A stretch of DNA of 46,613 nucleotides from contig NZ_NEXS01000015.1 in the NCBI RefSeq assembly GCF_002810445.1, forward strand, positions 1-46,613, read 5' to 3'. Shown here piece after piece: positions 4,223 through 14,837 of this stretch (position 1 is its first letter; each line of letters starts with the position of its first letter). A program made the translations under genes and the position numbers. The notes beneath the pieces were generated by a model. That model was given only the letters and a program-made list of their open reading frames with translations, did no database searches and was not told the DNA's origin. The DNA is from Advenella sp. S44 (GTDB taxonomy: Bacteria > Pseudomonadota > Gammaproteobacteria > Burkholderiales > Burkholderiaceae_B).

Positions 4223-4310
4223 GCCCTTCCATCTAGCCAGCTTGATAGAATGGCCTTAACCCGCCGATATTTGTCATGGTCTGTTTCCTTGTGCAAGTCC
4301 AGTCGGGTCA

Positions 4311-4352
4311 GACGGGAATACGGGGCGGCTCCTGTATTCCCGTCGTCTTTTT
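4311..4352 (+). terminator. second plus-strand terminator in the same intergenic region
   Basis: A perfect 11-bp stem (GACGGGAATAC at 4311-4321 and its complement at 4334-4344) is followed by GTCTTTTT on the plus strand only. No CDS precedes it on that strand. It could end a small RNA beginning near the second CTTGATAGAAT (4241-4251), or catch antisense transcription before the KfrB-domain gene. Confidence 0.65.
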
Positions 4353-8766: not shown

Positions 8767-9162
8767 TCAAACTAGATCGATTTTGCTGAAATCTGTGATA
8801 TCGCCGTTATTGTCAAGCGTGATAGCGAAATTGACAATATCACCGTTCTGAAACACATTGGATTGCAATGGAGCCGCAAGTAATTCATTGAAGAATTCAA
8901 CGTAAACCATATCCATATTGACTTTTGCTCGCTGGTCGGATCTGGAAGTCATGAATGATAAATCTCTTGACCATTTCATCGACCTGGAGTGTTGACCTGC
9001 TGGCGAGCGAGACTCCATCCGACTGTCAGCGCGGCGAGCGCCACTATCATCAAACTGATGATCTAATTTAAATGGATCGTGGCCTTGTCGTCGGCCAACA
9101 AGCCAGCCAACACCACAGGCACGACCTCCGAACGTGATTGGAAACCAATACGGAATATCCAC
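8767..9162 (-). CDS. uncertain hypothetical protein
   Basis: A 131-residue frame whose N-terminal half has unusual composition and no recognisable family. The last ~50 residues (VYVEFFNELLAAPLQSNVFQ then NGDIVNFAITLDNNGDITDF) look protein-like, with an acidic Asn/Asp loop. It may be the tail of a broken gene rather than an intact one. No clear ribosome-binding site was found. Confidence 0.3.
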   Translation of the reverse strand: MDIPYWFPITFGGRACGVGWLVGRRQGHDPFKLDHQFDDSGARRADSRMESRSPAGQHSRSMKWSRDLSFMTSRSDQRAKVNMDMVYVEFFNELLAAPLQSNVFQNGDIVNFAITLDNNGDITDFSKIDLV

Positions 9163-9210
9163 AATCGACTAAAATCAGTCTTTATCTGACTACACGCTCG
9201 CATTTTGATG

Positions 9211-9513
9211 TATACTCCTTCTGTTTTCAACGTTTAGAGGTTAATTGTGGACACAGACGGATGTAGTCGATCTAAGATCGCACGCGCCGCCTAGTAGGAT
9301 CAGCAGAAACCTTTTTTCTGTCACATCCTGCTAAGCCAGGATGTGGTAGGCCCCGGGTAACAGTCTGTTGCTCGTTCAAACCCCATTCATTTTTATCGCT
9401 TTTTTAGCTATGCTCATTGGCGGTGTACGTTCGCGTGCCGTCGACACATAGATAAAAGGCGGCGCATGCTCGTGGATTCATCACCGTTTTCTCCCCTTTT
9501 CAAGGAGATAACT
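9211..9513 (+). promoter_or_regulatory. long structured leader before the first Mg2+-island gene
   Basis: A -10-like TATACT (9211-9216) is followed by about 290 bases before the first start codon at 9514. The leader contains a short GTG ORF (9247-9294) and two adjacent hairpins: CAGAAA/TTTCTG (9304-9320) and the perfect CACATCCTG-CTAAGC-CAGGATGTG (9322-9345). Two T-rich runs follow near 9390-9407. The layout (mini-ORF, tandem hairpins, U-rich tract) resembles Mg2+-responsive leaders, but no known riboswitch core was recognised. Confidence 0.5.
9247..9294 (+). CDS. 15-codon leader ORF, acidic start
   Basis: GTG start with GAGG six bases upstream. The peptide is MDTDGCSRSKIARAA. The two early Asp residues parallel the acidic starts of the other mini-ORFs in this island (9896 and 10692). 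Translation through 9294 would end just before the first leader hairpin, so ribosome position could influence folding. The reading as a leader peptide is inference. Confidence 0.4.
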   Translation: MDTDGCSRSKIARAA

Positions 9514-9861
9514 ATGCGCACCATCAAATTATTGCAATGGCTGCACCGTTCGGGCGCAGCCCAGAACGACACGCGACCCACCACCTATCGACTTACCATT
9601 ATCAGCTTAAGCACGATGCTTAACACGATACGTAAACAGCTCTACCACGAGCTGCAGGCCTTGGACGTCCCTATTTCGCGGGTGCATGTTTCTTGTGCTG
9701 ATGTCGAGCACTTGGCCAGCACTTCGGTCACGCTGGAGTGTCCCCCTCATCTTCGCCCAAGGTTAAATGCCCTGGCGCTACGGCTGGGTCAAAGTCCTGA
9801 TATACGTCGAATTCATGTGGAAAGCGCAGCAGGAAGCACCCTCGCCGCGCTACCCGCCTGA
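9514..9861 (+). CDS. orphan MgtC-C-terminal-like (ACT-fold) protein
   Basis: A 115-residue protein with AAGGAG upstream of the ATG at 9514. It starts with a membrane-proximal-type helix (MRTIKLLQWLHRSG) and continues YRLTIISLSTMLNTIRKQLY, VPISRVHVSCADVEH and TSVTLECPPHLRP, ending RLGQSPDIRRIHVES. This beta-alpha-beta-beta-alpha-beta order matches the cytosolic C-terminal domain of MgtC, including the real mgtC at 14121-14837, but there are no membrane helices. It may be a free regulatory domain for MgtC or a Mg2+ transporter. Assignment is by pattern, not alignment. Confidence 0.5.
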   Translation: MRTIKLLQWLHRSGAAQNDTRPTTYRLTIISLSTMLNTIRKQLYHELQALDVPISRVHVSCADVEHLASTSVTLECPPHLRPRLNALALRLGQSPDIRRIHVESAAGSTLAALPA

Positions 9862-9895
9862 CAGTATTTTGATAAGTAATCCATAGGAGAGCGCC

Positions 9896-9958
9896 ATGCC
9901 AGAAGACCCTGAGCCGCGACGGCACCCCACTTGGCCCGACACTCGTCCGCTGCGCTGA
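9896..9958 (+). CDS. MgtL-like acidic-proline leader peptide
   Basis: A 20-codon ORF with a strong AGGAG site six bases upstream, encoding MPEDPEPRRHPTWPDTRPLR. The enterobacterial mgtA leader peptide MgtL is [17 protein letters not shown] (from memory). Both have an acidic/proline start followed by Arg pairs. In MgtL, acidic-proline residues destabilise translating ribosomes when Mg2+ is low and so switch on the transporter. This ORF lies 165 bases before the 10124 gene, with hairpins between, inside a Mg2+-transport cluster. Function is inferred. Confidence 0.6.
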   Translation: MPEDPEPRRHPTWPDTRPLR

Positions 9959-10037
9959 CATTTTCTGTTTAACAGAGAATAACCGCTTAAAAATGGGCAC
10001 GGCCAGCCTATAAAGCTTACCCAACAGGATTATCGTT

Positions 10038-10055
10038 CAGTGGCGCAAGCCACTG
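10038..10055 (+). promoter_or_regulatory. GNRA-capped hairpin between leader peptide and 10124 gene
   Basis: CAGTGGC-GCAA-GCCACTG is a perfect 7-bp stem with a GCAA tetraloop, the most stable class of RNA loop. A smaller hairpin TCTGTT/AACAGA lies at about 9964-9976, right after the MgtL-like stop. Neither is followed by a T-run, so a Rho-dependent or folding switch is more likely than intrinsic termination. Confidence 0.5.
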
Positions 10056-10123
10056 AGGGATAGTCGCACCCGTAGACAACGCAACACGCAAGGGGCGGCT
10101 GCGTACATTAGAAGGAGATCATC

Positions 10124-10642
10124 ATGTTCATGACTCATTCGCCATTTTCATCAACGCGACGCCACCGTATTTCTTTGGTAGCGACACCGGACCACATCAA
10201 CCAGGTATATGCCGCATTGCGTGCGGCCGCCTATGACCTTGGCCTTCATCTCACGCGTTGGCAGGAATTATCTGCTCCAGCAGTAGGATTCGCACAGGAT
10301 GAGTCTGTCCCAAATGAAGCTCGTTTATTGCAAGCCGAATTCAGCACCACAGATAGTCTATCGACTCAGTTTCTACAGCGCGTTATTCGCGCCACCAACA
10401 ACATACCCATGGCGAGTCTCAAGCTAGAGTTATTCCACCCGACGGTACCTGTGGGCTCCAAAACGCAATCCGCACTTGCCCCGAAGACCGGCAACGGAAA
10501 ATTGAATACTGTCCGGCGCCCTCCTTCCCAACCATTGTGGGCATGGCTGCTACCCGAACCGCCATGCTCCTCTGAGGCTTTTGATTGGCCTGAAGAGCAA
10601 TCGGCCTCACGCCCCACAGTACACAGCGCACCATTTCGATAG
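10124..10642 (+). CDS. second orphan MgtC-tail-like domain protein
   Basis: A 172-residue protein with a GGAG ribosome-binding site. The N-terminal ~110 residues (RRHRISLVATPDHINQVYAA, ARLLQAEFSTTDSLSTQFLQ, IPMASLKLELFHP) again follow the MgtC C-terminal ACT-like pattern. The last ~60 residues are Pro/Ser-rich (PPSQPLWAWLLPEPPC) and look disordered. No membrane helix or signal peptide is seen. With the 9514 gene it makes two stand-alone copies of this domain in one cluster. Function unknown. Confidence 0.45.
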   Translation: MFMTHSPFSSTRRHRISLVATPDHINQVYAALRAAAYDLGLHLTRWQELSAPAVGFAQDESVPNEARLLQAEFSTTDSLSTQFLQRVIRATNNIPMASLKLELFHPTVPVGSKTQSALAPKTGNGKLNTVRRPPSQPLWAWLLPEPPCSSEAFDWPEEQSASRPTVHSAPFR

Positions 10643-10691
10643 TGCGTGCTAATGGCACACACGATAAATAACTCACTAGAAAGGAAAAATT

Positions 10692-10826
10692 ATGGACGAA
10701 GACGGTAACGAGATGTTGCTCGCTGGCCACCTTCTTGCGCGGCCAGCGAGCAACACCAACCCCAGCTATTTCTTTAACCGATCAAGGACTAACTTGAGCC
10801 GGCGGAGCGTTCTGTTGCCTAAATAA
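10692..10826 (+). CDS. 44-codon leader ORF with acidic start and internal hairpin
   Basis: The ATG follows AAGGA by seven bases. The peptide begins MDEDGNEMLLAGHLLARPAS and ends SRRSVLLPK. Codons 8-21 are written in a perfect 15-bp stem: arms 10714-10728 and 10741-10755 with a 12-base loop. Ribosomes released early by the acidic start would leave the hairpin free to form. It lies 48 bases before the MgtA-remnant/porin ORF. Both the mini-ORF and the hairpin are directly visible; the switch is inferred. Confidence 0.5.
   Translation: MDEDGNEMLLAGHLLARPASNTNPSYFFNRSRTNLSRRSVLLPK
10714..10755 (+). promoter_or_regulatory. 15-bp perfect stem-loop inside leader ORF
   Basis: The left arm begins TGTTGCTCGCTGGCC, and the right arm is its exact complement, with a 12-base loop (10729-10740). 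There is no U-tract after it. Its place within the coding part of a short leader ORF suggests ribosome-controlled folding, as in attenuation leaders. Confidence 0.65.
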
Positions 10827-10873
10827 AAGGGCTGGATCTCCTGTCCGTGCTCAGGCGCATCAGGATGTATCTA

Positions 10874-12589
10874 ATGAAAAAAATAACGCAACAGCTCCAC
10901 TACGGAGATATCGCAAAAACGTCAACCTTTCACAATGACCCAAGCTTACCCATTGTGCACTACGCCTGGCACTCCCTTAACGCGGTGCTACACGAGTTAA
11001 GAACGGACCTTAAAGGGTTAGTTCAGGCCGATGCACTACAGCGTTTAACCCGTAATGGTCCTAACAAGATCGCTCTCGATAAGCTTATACGCCGCGTTGA
11101 CAAACGCACCGACCGGCAATTGTCGCTACAACAACAACCCGCTGCCGTGCGGCGTCGCGCCACGCTGTCAGCGTCTCCCATAGAACGAGAAATCGCTATT
11201 CGCTCGCTTGTGCCAGGGGACATCATCACACTGAAGCCAGGCGACCTTATTCCTGCCGACATTCGACTGATCGACTCGGAGAACTTCCTTGTCGATCAAT
11301 CCGCGCCAGACTCCCTACCCAATGCCTGCCTCATGGGTGCCCAGGTCATTCACGGGACAGCCACAGCGGTTGTCGTTGGAACCGGGCCAGCGACCTGCCT
11401 TGGCTCTGAAGCCGAAGATGCCATTGCTGCCATGCTCGCCGTGTCCGCCACCTACTTCTCATTACTGCGACCCGCATGTCGAGCGGCAACGGCAATCATT
11501 TGCTCGGGTTTGCTTTTAAGTGCAGCGCCCGCTCATGCCCAAGAGGGGGTATCTCTTTATGGCACTGTGGATACCGGCATAGGCTGGACCCGTGTGTCTG
11601 GTGGAGATCATCTGACCGGCGCCCTAAGCGGCGGCCAAGCTGACTCGCTGTGGGGATTACGCGGTTCCGAAGGGCTCGCTAACGGGTTTACAGCAAGCTT
11701 CGCTCTTGAAAGCGGCTTTGATCCGTCCACCGGATCGCTGGAAGATGAAGACCGCCTGTTCAACTATGCCGCATGGATAGGCATAGGACACGATGAACTG
11801 GGTGAGTTCCGCCTGGGTCGCCAACACGCCATAGGTCAGCGGTTCGGCGACGAACTGGAAATCGCCTCATGGGCTGACTTCGGACTGGGTGCGCTGTTCA
11901 AAGCCTCTGATAATTACCAGTTATCCAATACCATCAGCTACCTAAGCCCCGAGCTATCCGGCTTTCAGGCTGGACTCAGCTACAGTTTCAATGCCAACGA
12001 CGGCGAGCATTTTCAAACCAGCCGTAACGCGCGTGCACTAAGTGCCGGCCTGCGTTATGACGACGGGCCGCTCTACGCGACGCTGACCTATGACCGCATG
12101 CAGCCAGGCCACGATGGGGTACACGGAAGCCGCTCAGCCCAAGCATGGCAGCTTGGGGCAAGCTACGACTTCGAGGTCATCAAGTTGGCAGCAGGCTGGT
12201 CCCGCCAAAGTAACGGCTTTGTCGGACTGAACGGCGGAGATACAACTACCGACGATCTCAGCGAAGTCGGGCTTTCAGGGGCGGGCCCAATGGAATTCGT
12301 CCAAGGCGGCCGAGTCGACGCCTGGTTTCTGGGGGCGTCGCTGCCACTAGGCCCGGGCCGTGCGTTAGCGCAATGGTCCATCGCCAACCCTGATTGGACA
12401 TGGCGCAGCACGGGCGAACGCGCCAAAAAAGTCCAAACCTATTCCCTAGGCTACGTCTATGACCTGTCGCCACGCACCAGCGTGTACGCCTTTGCGGCAG
12501 GCGGGCGCAATTTTTCACTCGACGACACATTCACGGCACGCAACCCAACAGTCAGCCGGATTGCCGCTGGACTCACTCATCACTTCTAG
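10874..12589 (+). CDS. MgtA-type ATPase remnant fused to an outer-membrane porin
   Basis: One open frame. Residues about 1-185 from the ATG at 10874 (AGGA eight bases upstream) are a collapsed MgtA-like P-type ATPase: ALQRLTRNGPNKIA, LVPGDIITLKPGDLIPADIR and LPNACLMGAQVIHGTATAVV match the N-terminal and actuator domains. The TGES loop, all membrane helices and DKTG are missing. The frame then runs into a signal peptide (ATG 11432; AAPAHA cleavage site) and a Gram-negative porin starting EGVSLYGTVDTGIGWTRV and ending in Phe (GLTHHF). A porin needs an N-terminal signal, so it may be translated from 11432. The porin part is secure; the fusion is odd. Confidence 0.7.
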   Translation: MKKITQQLHYGDIAKTSTFHNDPSLPIVHYAWHSLNAVLHELRTDLKGLVQADALQRLTRNGPNKIALDKLIRRVDKRTDRQLSLQQQPAAVRRRATLSASPIEREIAIRSLVPGDIITLKPGDLIPADIRLIDSENFLVDQSAPDSLPNACLMGAQVIHGTATAVVVGTGPATCLGSEAEDAIAAMLAVSATYFSLLRPACRAATAIICSGLLLSAAPAHAQEGVSLYGTVDTGIGWTRVSGGDHLTGALSGGQADSLWGLRGSEGLANGFTASFALESGFDPSTGSLEDEDRLFNYAAWIGIGHDELGEFRLGRQHAIGQRFGDELEIASWADFGLGALFKASDNYQLSNTISYLSPELSGFQAGLSYSFNANDGEHFQTSRNARALSAGLRYDDGPLYATLTYDRMQPGHDGVHGSRSAQAWQLGASYDFEVIKLAAGWSRQSNGFVGLNGGDTTTDDLSEVGLSGAGPMEFVQGGRVDAWFLGASLPLGPGRALAQWSIANPDWTWRSTGERAKKVQTYSLGYVYDLSPRTSVYAFAAGGRNFSLDDTFTARNPTVSRIAAGLTHHF

Positions 12590-12674: not shown

Positions 12675-14030
12675 ATGACTCTAGATACACTAACGCTGCG
12701 CCTCCAACACCACATTGATCAAAAAGACTACACCGCTGGCACTGCACTACTTAACGACATACCAGCGGTAGACGCCGCCTCGGTGCTGAACGATACGCCG
12801 CTGAGCACGGCGTGGAAGCTGCTCTCGAGCTTGAATATAAACCGTAAAGCCTCGGTGTTTGGGCATTTGCGCCCCACCATGCAAGCCGACATGGCGCGCC
12901 TGATGAGCCGCAAAGAACTGGCCTTGCTATTCGAGGAAATGGAACATGACGAGCGTGCCGACTTATACAACCGGCTAAGCGAGTCCGAGCGCCGAGCCTT
13001 GCTGCCAGGGCTGGCCCATGCCGAACGCGAAGATATCCGTCTGCTTGCCAGCTACCCCGAAGGCACAGTCGGCTCGGTCATGACATCCGCTTACGTCACG
13101 CTGCGAGCCGACCAGACTGTGGCCCAGGCACTGGATACCATCCGCCTGGAAGCGCCAGACATGGAAACCATTTATCAAGCTTATGTTCTGGACGAAAGCC
13201 GTCACCTAGTAGGCACCCTGTCACTGCGCGACCTGATACTTGCTGTACCGGCCATGCTGATTGAACAGATCATGGTGAAAGACGTCATTCAGTGTCAGGC
13301 TCAGGAGCCGCGTACTGCAGCAGCGCGCCAGATCGCCCACTACGATCTGATTGCCGTGCCCGTTGTCAACGAAACGGGTCAAATGGTGGGCATCGTCACG
13401 CACGACGACGCACTGGATGTCACCCAGGAAGAAAGCACCGACGATCAGCTCAGGCTGGGCGCCGTAAGCCGCCTGGCGGTTTCCTTCAAAGATGCGAGCA
13501 TAGGCGCGCTTTATCGCACCCGTGTCGGCTGGCTCGTCATTCTGGTCTTTGGCAACCTTTTTTCCGGAGCCGGCATTGCCCACTTTGAAAGTCTGATCGA
13601 AAGCCTGGTTGCCTTGGTGTTCTTCCTGCCTTTGCTTGTCGACAGCGGGGGCAACGCCGGTTCACAAAGCGCAACGCTAATGGTTCGTGCTCTGGCCACC
13701 GGCGAGGTCATGGCCAAAGACTGGGTGCAAATGCTGGGTAAGGAAATTATCGTCGCCCTGCTGCTGGGGCTGAGTATGGCCCTTGCCGTTTCGCTGATCG
13801 GCTTTGTACGGGCTGGACCGGAAGTAGCGTTAGTGGTGTCTATCACCATGGTCATCATTGTTATCGTTGGCAGCGTTATTGGCATGTTGCTGCCTTTTTT
13901 GCTGACTCGATTCAAGCTTGACCCCGCATCGGCCAGCGCACCGCTGATCACATCCATCTGCGACGGCGTCGGTGTGTTGATTTACTTCAATATCGCCAAC
14001 CTGATGCTGGTGTTGCCAGACGCCGTCTAA
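12675..14030 (+). CDS. mgtE: MgtE-family Mg2+ transporter
   Basis: A 451-residue protein with the full MgtE order: N-terminal superhelical domain (to about residue 125, ending ASYPEGTVGSVMT), two CBS domains (about 130-255, e.g. IMVKDVIQ and IVTHDDAL) that sense cytosolic Mg2+ and gate the pore, then five C-terminal membrane helices. The pore-region motif LLVDSGGNAGSQSATL is present. Length is normal for the family. It lies in the plus-strand Mg2+ island, 85 bases after the porin gene. Confidence 0.95.
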   Translation: MTLDTLTLRLQHHIDQKDYTAGTALLNDIPAVDAASVLNDTPLSTAWKLLSSLNINRKASVFGHLRPTMQADMARLMSRKELALLFEEMEHDERADLYNRLSESERRALLPGLAHAEREDIRLLASYPEGTVGSVMTSAYVTLRADQTVAQALDTIRLEAPDMETIYQAYVLDESRHLVGTLSLRDLILAVPAMLIEQIMVKDVIQCQAQEPRTAAARQIAHYDLIAVPVVNETGQMVGIVTHDDALDVTQEESTDDQLRLGAVSRLAVSFKDASIGALYRTRVGWLVILVFGNLFSGAGIAHFESLIESLVALVFFLPLLVDSGGNAGSQSATLMVRALATGEVMAKDWVQMLGKEIIVALLLGLSMALAVSLIGFVRAGPEVALVVSITMVIIVIVGSVIGMLLPFLLTRFKLDPASASAPLITSICDGVGVLIYFNIANLMLVLPDAV

Positions 14031-14089: not shown

Positions 14090-14124
14090 ATCGACCAAAC
14101 CACATAAATATTCAAAAACAATGA
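14065..14124 (+). CDS. possible 19-codon leader ORF overlapping the mgtC start
   Basis: The ATG lies inside the left arm of the 14061-14089 hairpin and the ORF ends in a TGA that overlaps the mgtC ATG (ATGA). The peptide reads MHRNSVHVHRPNHINIQKQ. mgtC itself has no recognisable Shine-Dalgarno sequence, so coupling to this ORF would explain its translation. AAGAG precedes the mini-ORF. It does not share the acidic start of the other leaders. Confidence 0.4.
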   Translation: MHRNSVHVHRPNHINIQKQ

Positions 14125-14837
14125 AAGCCTTCGCCAATATCCAATTACTTGAAATCGCCGACACCCTGGTCAGCCTGACCACCGCCTTCATTATGGGCTC
14201 CATCATCGGCTTCGAGCGCCAGTATCGCCAGCGTACCGCCGGACTTCGTACCAACGTACTGGTGTCCGTTGGCGCGGCCATCTTCGTTGACATGGCCTTT
14301 CGCATTGCAGGTCATGATGGTGCCGTTCGCGTTATTGCTTACGTCGTATCGGGCGTTGGTTTTTTAGGGGCCGGTGTTATTATGCGCGAAGAAGGCAGCA
14401 TACGTGGCTTGAACACTGCCGCCACGTTGTGGGGATCAGCAGCGATTGGCGCTAGTGCAGGAGTAGGGCTGGTTGTAGAGGCGGTGCTAGGCACGTTTTT
14501 TGTATTGGCTGCAAACACACTACTGCGACCTTTTGTTAATTATATAAATCGCCTGCCCGTTGATACTGAATCCAGTGAAATTACAAACACTATCCATATC
14601 ATTACACCCAGCGATCAACGCCAGCACGCGATGACAGCATTAGAAGAAATTCTAGAATCAGCCAATTACCCTTTGGCAGAACTGGACATTACCCCCTTTG
14701 GCGAGGAGGAAATTGAAATCGAGGCAACACTGATGGCGACATCGATAAGCAGTGAAGACATGGATCGCCTGATCACCAAGCTTAACGCTGAACCGTCTAT
14801 CCATCAAGCCTTCTGGGCGCTAAGTACATCTGAATAA
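14121..14837 (+). CDS. mgtC: MgtC/SapB-family inner membrane protein
   Basis: A 238-residue protein. The N-terminal ~150 residues hold four or five membrane helices with the MgtC signatures GSIIGFERQYRQRTAGLRTN and VSGVGFLGAGVIMREEGSI, and WGSAAIGASAGVG. The cytosolic C-terminal domain (about 155-238) has the ACT-like fold seen in the orphan proteins at 9514 and 10124. MgtC proteins help cells grow at low Mg2+ and, in pathogens, modulate ATP synthase and virulence. The partner here is presumably MgtE. Confidence 0.93.
   Translation: MKAFANIQLLEIADTLVSLTTAFIMGSIIGFERQYRQRTAGLRTNVLVSVGAAIFVDMAFRIAGHDGAVRVIAYVVSGVGFLGAGVIMREEGSIRGLNTAATLWGSAAIGASAGVGLVVEAVLGTFFVLAANTLLRPFVNYINRLPVDTESSEITNTIHIITPSDQRQHAMTALEEILESANYPLAELDITPFGEEEIEIEATLMATSISSEDMDRLITKLNAEPSIHQAFWALSTSE

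Follow-up and report, generated by a model that had tools for sequence, protein, structure and literature searches.

A candidate MgtL-type acidic-proline leader peptide in a Mg2+ transport cluster of Advenella sp. S44 and its relatives in other Betaproteobacteria

Can a leader peptide of the MgtL type operate beyond the enterobacteria, and between the genes of an operon instead of in front of a lone transporter gene? In MgtL, according to the available parts of two reports, ribosomes drop off at low Mg2+ on the destabilising sequence EPDP, leading to expression of the downstream gene (PMC11282234, PMC11552253). The question is raised by uORF1, an ORF of 20 codons carried by contig NZ_NEXS01000015.1 of Advenella sp. 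S44 (positions 1 to 46,613, forward strand; this whole stretch of 46,613 nucleotides is called the window). uORF1 lies between ORF115 and ORF172, and six bases separate its ATG from the Shine-Dalgarno sequence (SD) AGGAG. The features of the locus are the following.

9514-9861, + strand: ORF115, a stand-alone protein resembling the MgtC C-terminal (ACT-type) domain
9885-9889, + strand: AGGAG, SD of uORF1
9896-9958, + strand: uORF1, predicted leader peptide MPEDPEPRRHPTWPDTRPLR, member of a conserved class
9902-9919, + strand: acidic-proline motif codons of uORF1, E-D-P-E-P-R(CGA), the part compared with the tail for pN/pS in relatives
9960-9980, + strand: hairpin directly 3' of the uORF1 stop, arms ATTTTCTGT/ACAGAGAAT
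10038-10055, + strand: hairpin with a GCAA loop, CAGTGGC-GCAA-GCCACTG
10124-10642, + strand: ORF172, whose Chromobacterium homolog is the second small gene in the mgtA operon
10692-10826, + strand: uORF2, a second acidic leader, MDEDGNEM..., preceding the MgtA remnant
10715-10754, + strand: 14-bp hairpin within uORF2, starting directly after the acidic codons
10874-12589, + strand: ORF in which a truncated MgtA, comprising N-terminal and actuator parts, runs on into a porin
12675-14030, + strand: mgtE (Pfam MgtE, 1.2e-33)
14121-14837, + strand: mgtC (Pfam MgtC, 1.6e-35)

Much of this layout had been recognised in an earlier sequence-only reading, which had described a 20-codon ORF with a near-ideal ribosome-binding site (RBS), its clustering with mgtE and mgtC, now confirmed by Pfam, and a downstream gene other than mgtA; indeed, the next gene is ORF172, and the MgtA remnant lies further on. 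The MgtL sequence that it gave is indeed that of E. coli MG1655; uORF2 had been overlooked. It had also placed the Mg2+ island on a plasmid, and the presence of KfrA, KfrB, ParA and a Tn3 transposase on the contig supports, short of proof, a plasmid-like nature; relatives were absent from the plasmid collection at both the DNA and the protein level. As a whole, the earlier interpretation is partly supported.

ORF115 matches Pfam MgtC_SapB_C at E 0.012 in the window and 4.8e-5 in a Chromobacterium homolog, both under the curated cut-off. Its AlphaFold model (pLDDT 80.9) displays a beta-alpha-beta-beta-alpha-beta fold, for which the best hits in the PDB are the two solved C-terminal domains of MgtC, 7qa5 (E 3.4e-6) and 2lqj (E 1.0e-5); judging from this model, ORF115 resembles the C-terminal domain of MgtC in free-standing form. 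ORF172 has no Pfam family match; a homolog profile from which the window was excluded detects it at E 1.9e-15, and BLASTP gives 24% identity over 105 columns. The MgtA-porin ORF matches E1-E2_ATPase (2.1e-12), Cation_ATPase_N (2.7e-4) and Porin_4 (6.1e-49); by eye, the MgtA part lacks transmembrane segments, and it is open in frame into the porin. Two other features were observed in the window: a perfect 9-bp hairpin (CACATCCTG/CAGGATGTG, 9322-9345) located 5' of ORF115, and a match to the Xanthomonas sRNA asX6 of Rfam at 4258-4349 (52 bits for a gathering score of 50).

The distribution of such peptides was analysed around the ORF115 homologs of the family of the window, which are found in 103 of 200 genomes, at 107 places. 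Of these, 104 were examined, including the window and leaving out the same-genus genomes G136, G152 and G167. A uORF was scored when an ORF in the 600 bases following the ORF115 stop had [DE][PS][DE]P among its first 12 residues, and MgtA when a match lay within 1.5 kb downstream. All 19 loci followed by an MgtA gene or remnant carry a uORF, including the two with a truncated MgtA (the window and its close relative), and none of the 85 loci without MgtA does, two of these having fewer than 600 bases downstream and three (L004, L013 and L016) carrying leaders that are acidic without being [DE]P[DE]P. Downstream of these 85 ORF115 genes, MgtC is found in 10 cases, MgtE in one and none of the three proteins in 74. 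At the loci whose MgtA is not known to be truncated, a short ORF with an RBS precedes MgtA in 17 of 17 and encodes a peptide of 21 codons (36 in two cases), for example MPSALDPEPRLRP..., MPATSDPEPRWRW... or MPNSDEPEPRLRW... The relatives thus have, like MgtL, an ORF with an RBS upstream of MgtA, while the window has just a truncated MgtA behind ORF172. Between ORF115 and mgtC, two loci (L005, 1591-1698; L006, 1834-1941) encode a peptide of 35 residues, MKDPYK..., with one hydrophobic stretch, which occupies the slot of the leader peptide in other loci.

A scan of GTDB with the pattern GGAG-N(4-10)-ATGCC-N(4-10)-GANCCNGANCCNCGA, in which CGA is required, returned at least 119 matching stretches. 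Among the 119 matches listed, 40 are in-frame [DE]P[DE]PR in ORFs of at most 60 codons, from Achromobacter or Bordetella (26), Chromobacterium (7), the Alcaligenaceae strain CGII-64, which carries a near copy of the window, and six others. MgtA, MgtE or ORF115 lies within 2.6 kb downstream in 30 of these 40. Four of the remaining ten (L145, L221, L224 and L240) belong to the same genera or to CGII-64 and have just 130-1050 bases downstream; the six others in this list have none of the three proteins downstream, L227 having 384 bases to view. Among the 79 out-of-frame or long matches listed, whose downstream room is unequal, none is followed by MgtA, MgtE or ORF115. Since many genomes are common to the GTDB and family loci, the two sets of counts are not additive. 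A wider pattern was found in 7 of 369 genomes of the class (reversed control: 7) and 10 of 399 genomes of the order (control: 2), the window being included in each; of the loci listed apart from the window, five are in-frame short ORFs and none has a match to MgtA, MgtE, MgtC or ORF115 within about 1.5 kb downstream. Thirty regions upstream of mgtA were also inspected in the order: one is of the Achromobacter type (L131), one encodes MNDDSYPP... (L135), five contain weak candidates (L119, L120, L124, L129 and L132) and the other 23 contain no candidate by the same filter.

The same peptide class occurs in Chromobacteriaceae, where an ORF115 homolog was found in 19 of 61 genomes. An acidic-proline uORF lies beside it in all 19, 18 encoding [DE]PEPR and one MSDDPRPRP; a second, distant copy of ORF115 has no uORF in L264 and MTEEPEAQARSA in L279. 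These peptides are near-identical (MPEEPEPR, MSEEPEPR, MLIEDPEPR); an ORF115/ORF172/mgtA operon contains two or three of them, or a single one stands before mgtE. Twelve genomes display the order MPEEPEPR..., ORF115, second peptide, ORF172 homolog and mgtA, the second peptide being MPEEPEPQ..., MPEEPGPQ..., MPEDPEPK... or similar. Five genomes display the order ORF115a, MLIEDPEPRP..., ORF115b, MSEEPEPRSCRPEAAR..., ORF172, MTD[DE]SYP... (43 codons) and mgtA. An SD precedes the first peptide in 17 of 17 loci; the second has no recognisable SD by the criterion used in four of 17 (L259, L260, L266 and L268), which makes these four second peptides doubtful. MgtA is found in all seventeen at E 1e-28 or better and in L278 at 4.5e-9, giving 18 genomes with a match; L277 carries MgtE in place of MgtA. 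C. subtsugae and C. sphagni encode an additional peptide, MPEEPEPRPCRPAR..., 5' of mgtE.

The profile match of ORF172 therefore indicates that the window shares with Chromobacteriaceae the operon order ORF115-uORF-ORF172-(uORF)-mgtA, both of its uORFs being in peptide-bearing slots. As the same slot carries a peptide in operons ending in mgtA, uORF1 seems to occupy an ancestral position in the cluster, in which the mgtA of the window has decayed. This runs against an isolated, relocated sensor; the sequence-only reading had proposed a convergent or relocated one. The central claim of that reading, an MgtL-like acidic-proline leader tied to Mg2+ transport, is supported: the motif codons are conserved in relatives, where peptides of this class are also found before mgtA or mgtE.

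The comparison of related loci for conservation of the acidic-proline codons, which had been suggested together with this claim, was carried out on three classes of uORFs: those preceding ORF115 in Chromobacterium (class A, 10 distinct sequences), those preceding ORF172 (class B, 12) and those preceding mgtA in Achromobacter and Bordetella (class M, 14). Pairwise pN/pS is 0.00 for the motif vs 1.88 for the tail in class A, 0.11 vs 0.81 in class B, whose uORFs were located by a pattern that itself requires some of the motif (it matched in 17 of 17 loci, so that all were kept), and 0.25 vs 1.05 in class M: the motif codons are under purifying selection and the tail is not. For classes A and M, the SD and the content of D, E and P served to locate the uORFs. 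The values for classes A and B come from the twelve genomes, leaving out L272-L276, and the class M alignments are without L041. Third positions vary at codon 2 in the three classes, at codon 5 in A and at codon 7 in M, and D and E interchange within the motif. As motif pN/pS is low while third positions vary, the amino acids are held and the tail drifts; the acidic-proline motif is thus conserved as amino acids within the first 10 or so codons. Fixed codons are also observed, namely CCG at codon 7 (10/10 in A, 12/12 in B), CCC at codon 5 in B and CGA in A and M; since some proline codons of the motif are invariant at their third position, part of the conservation may be at the RNA or codon level. 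This selection on the motif is the strongest sign that the uORFs are translated in relatives. For the window, it would apply by analogy, the comparison of its own codons being with just one near-identical copy, that of strain CGII-64.

At the level of genomics, a functioning like that of MgtL is therefore supported by the conservation of the peptides, by the selection acting on their motif in relatives and by their linkage to MgtA or MgtE. The reading that we favour, with a probability of about 65%, is that uORF1 is a cis-acting MgtL-type leader peptide on which ribosome drop-off at low Mg2+ would turn on ORF172 and the cluster. For uORF1, we infer translation, ribosome drop-off, Mg2+ as the signal and the output step. 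The nascent chain, through E-D-P-E-P within its first 7-8 residues, would destabilise the ribosome, and more so at low Mg2+; after drop-off, the mRNA behind would fold or stay protected, leading to expression of ORF172 and then of the rest of the Mg2+ cluster. When Mg2+ is sufficient, uORF1 would be completed and expression of the next gene lowered, via Rho-dependent termination or hiding of its RBS. Control could also be modular, each intercistronic gap of one operon being able to hold a peptide, of which the window would retain two, uORF1 and uORF2. The fuller proposal, that in betaproteobacterial Mg2+ operons two or three successive cistrons, encoding stand-alone MgtC C-terminal-domain proteins and an MgtA or MgtE transporter, are each preceded by an MgtL-type peptide and gated separately through ribosome stability, is tentative and falls slightly short of an even bet.

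How the output would be achieved is addressed by the structure of the RNA. A stretch of 115 bases starting at codon 7 was compared with dinucleotide shuffles in 38 of 39 chosen leaders, one being too short: z is below -2 in 13/38, vs 2/38 upstream control stretches, and the median is -1.17 vs -0.15. The uORF1 leader of the window is no more structured than its shuffles (z -0.33; relative, 0.72). The uORF2 leader is more structured than its shuffles (z -3.81); its relatives give -3.01, -1.88 and -5.54, but Chromobacteriaceae class C -1.74, -0.55 and -0.55. In relatives, the uORF2 slot encodes MDEDGNEM (L003), MNNDSNEM (L004, before mgtE), MDDDTPRRR (L013) or MTDDSYPRPP (Chromobacteriaceae), and in the uORF2 hairpin a C-G pair is replaced by U-A in L003, both arms having changed, while L004 has a single mismatch. 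RNAalifold and pair counting on the leaders revealed no covariation above shuffles; a stem of 33 pairs is 96% kept in ten Achromobacter-type leaders yet nearly invariant. The two hairpins downstream of uORF1 to which the sequence-only reading had drawn attention do exist, but their importance does not follow: that at 10038-10055 is identical in L003, the one close relative, and that at 9960-9980 is deleted there and was rejected as a conserved element. No intrinsic terminator was found at 9100-10900, and the Rfam Mg2+ riboswitches (M-box, Mg sensor) have no match at gathering scores in the window or eight related loci.

Within the preferred reading, the output could act through a hidden RBS of the next cistron, as in mgtQ, and not through transcription termination. 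Such a version is a serious possibility, somewhat less than evenly likely. Its intercistronic position is that of mgtQ between mgtC and mgtB, and, among the 15 class A leaders (of 17) with results, 12 have their best complement to the next RBS at the uORF stop or directly behind it. This complementarity is significant (p<0.05) in 3/15 of class A, but in just 2/17 of class B, 0/5 of class C and 0/16 of class M, and no complement in the window beats shuffles (p 0.74). Likewise, no RBS-hiding stem exclusive with a stem overlapping the uORF emerged, class A giving weak support, and the long C-rich Achromobacter leaders would also suit Rho. A conserved RBS switch based on pairings noticed by eye (UCCCC after the stop with GGGGGA; CGUAAGC with GCUUACG) was rejected, as these fail against dinucleotide shuffles, class A being a weak exception.

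Because its operon has no intact MgtA, uORF1 could itself be a leftover, the decaying remnant of an element that works solely in relatives. The truncation of MgtA, the fact that, at E 1e-100, nothing in the genome matches the Mg2+ ATPase family, the loss of one hairpin in the only close relative and the lack of significant structure in the uORF1 leader would all fit such decay. However, strain CGII-64 has exactly the same motif and SD with an altered tail, and ORF115, ORF172 and MgtE are under purifying selection between the two (ratios of 0.15, 0.31 and 0.07), which makes decay an unlikely explanation, albeit one that keeps some weight. The MgtA remnant also gives a ratio indicative of purifying selection against CGII-64 (0.26).

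Still less probable is that a uORF1-type leader senses charged tRNA-Pro, or the tRNA-Arg reading CGA, by ribosome stalling, as is reported for the mgtP leader of Salmonella, and not Mg2+ directly. Taking classes A, B and M together, 35 of the 36 distinct sequences have prolines at both motif positions. Furthermore, an acidic-proline start and Pro-Arg(CGA) are common to E. coli mgtL (ATG GAA CCT GAT CCC ACG CCT CTC CCT CGA CGG ...; L306, 232-285), the window (CCG CGA CGG, the CGA codon being at 9917-9919), classes A and M and L013 (CCT CGA AGA CGG). Each distinct sequence of class A (10/10) and class M (14/14) has CGA behind the last proline of the motif, though this codon represents 5-17% of arginine codons in the loci measured; Pro-Arg(CGA) is absent from class B, L276 and L016. 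Sensing of tRNA would not, however, require the acidic residues, which are kept with D/E interchange, and Chromobacterium class B has Q, N, K or L at the arginine position. The shared CGA might reflect common ancestry, slow decoding of this codon or a role at the base of the stem that follows.

Finally, short ORFs are common, but uORF1 is almost certainly not a chance ORF, because GGAG-N(4-10)-ATG-N(3-12)-GAN-CCN-GAN-CCN has a single match in the 4,305,312 bases of its genome, uORF1 itself at the Mg2+ cluster (none for the reversed pattern), and linkage and selection contradict chance.

Compared with MgtL of E. coli and Salmonella, uORF1 and its relatives are also short ORFs with a good SD, linked to the gene of a Mg2+ P-type ATPase; their acidic residues likewise alternate with prolines in the first 9 codons, before a Pro-Arg(CGA)-Arg whose Pro-Arg(CGA) is by eye the same. 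MgtL is, however, the 5' leader of a lone mgtA, whereas these peptides lie between the cistrons of a multigene operon, behind ORF115, occur in tandem and in Betaproteobacteria, and have ORF172 as the next gene in the window. The closest layout is that of mgtQ, an acidic Salmonella ORF of 8 codons located between mgtC and mgtB, which promotes mgtB translation without requiring its Pro codon, according to the available portion of its description (PMC8092293), where an mgtQ-like ORF of Brucella is also mentioned. As far as that portion goes, the peptides described here share with mgtQ a location between two cistrons, an MgtC-type gene on one side and that of a Mg2+ ATPase on the other, as well as the acidic early codons and the good SD: ORF115, MgtC C-terminal-like by its model, precedes the uORF and MgtA follows in 17 relatives, ORF172 standing between uORF1 and the truncated MgtA in the window. 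They differ from it by their conserved prolines and by RBS-hiding stems that are not demonstrable in the window.

In Salmonella mgtCBRU, with its leader ORFs mgtM and mgtP, a single Mg2+ operon is likewise controlled by several small ORFs (PMC8092293). These two respond to ATP and charged tRNA-Pro and lie together in the 5' leader, whereas the present peptides share one motif and precede successive cistrons. CruR, a copper uORF of Bordetella pertussis (145 residues, RAPP arrest motif, CXXC copper site; excerpt of PMC9426467), is another Alcaligenaceae uORF at metal-transport genes, acting via its nascent chain and Rho, but its sequence is unrelated. The available excerpt of PMC6117051 describes B. 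pertussis mgtC as monocistronic and does not mention a leader ORF, and that of PMC12810186 reports a different Mg2+-linked uORF in mycobacteria. A search of open-licence PubMed Central literature found no report of such peptides in Betaproteobacteria, or outside enterics apart from the Brucella mention, and no description of a multi-gate arrangement for MgtL.

If these peptides sense Mg2+, destabilisation of the ribosome by the nascent chain would be a repeatable readout of intracellular Mg2+ beyond enterobacteria. Their tandem arrangement provides natural replicates, with the same motif and different tails in many species, which should therefore allow the needs of the nascent peptide (acidic-proline residues, Arg CGA) to be separated from those of the RNA, and the free-standing MgtC C-terminal domain is a partner protein for follow-up.

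Another arrangement was observed in three loci (L163, L248 and L258), two from Gemmatimonadota MAGs and one from a MAG labelled Gammaproteobacteria: a 20-codon ORF with an SD, MPD[DE]ADPEPR.RR..TPER., lies directly 5' of a gene for proline dehydrogenase (identified in L163 by Pfam Pro_dh at 3e-6, and in L248 and L258 by similar sequence) and is possibly a proline-responsive leader.
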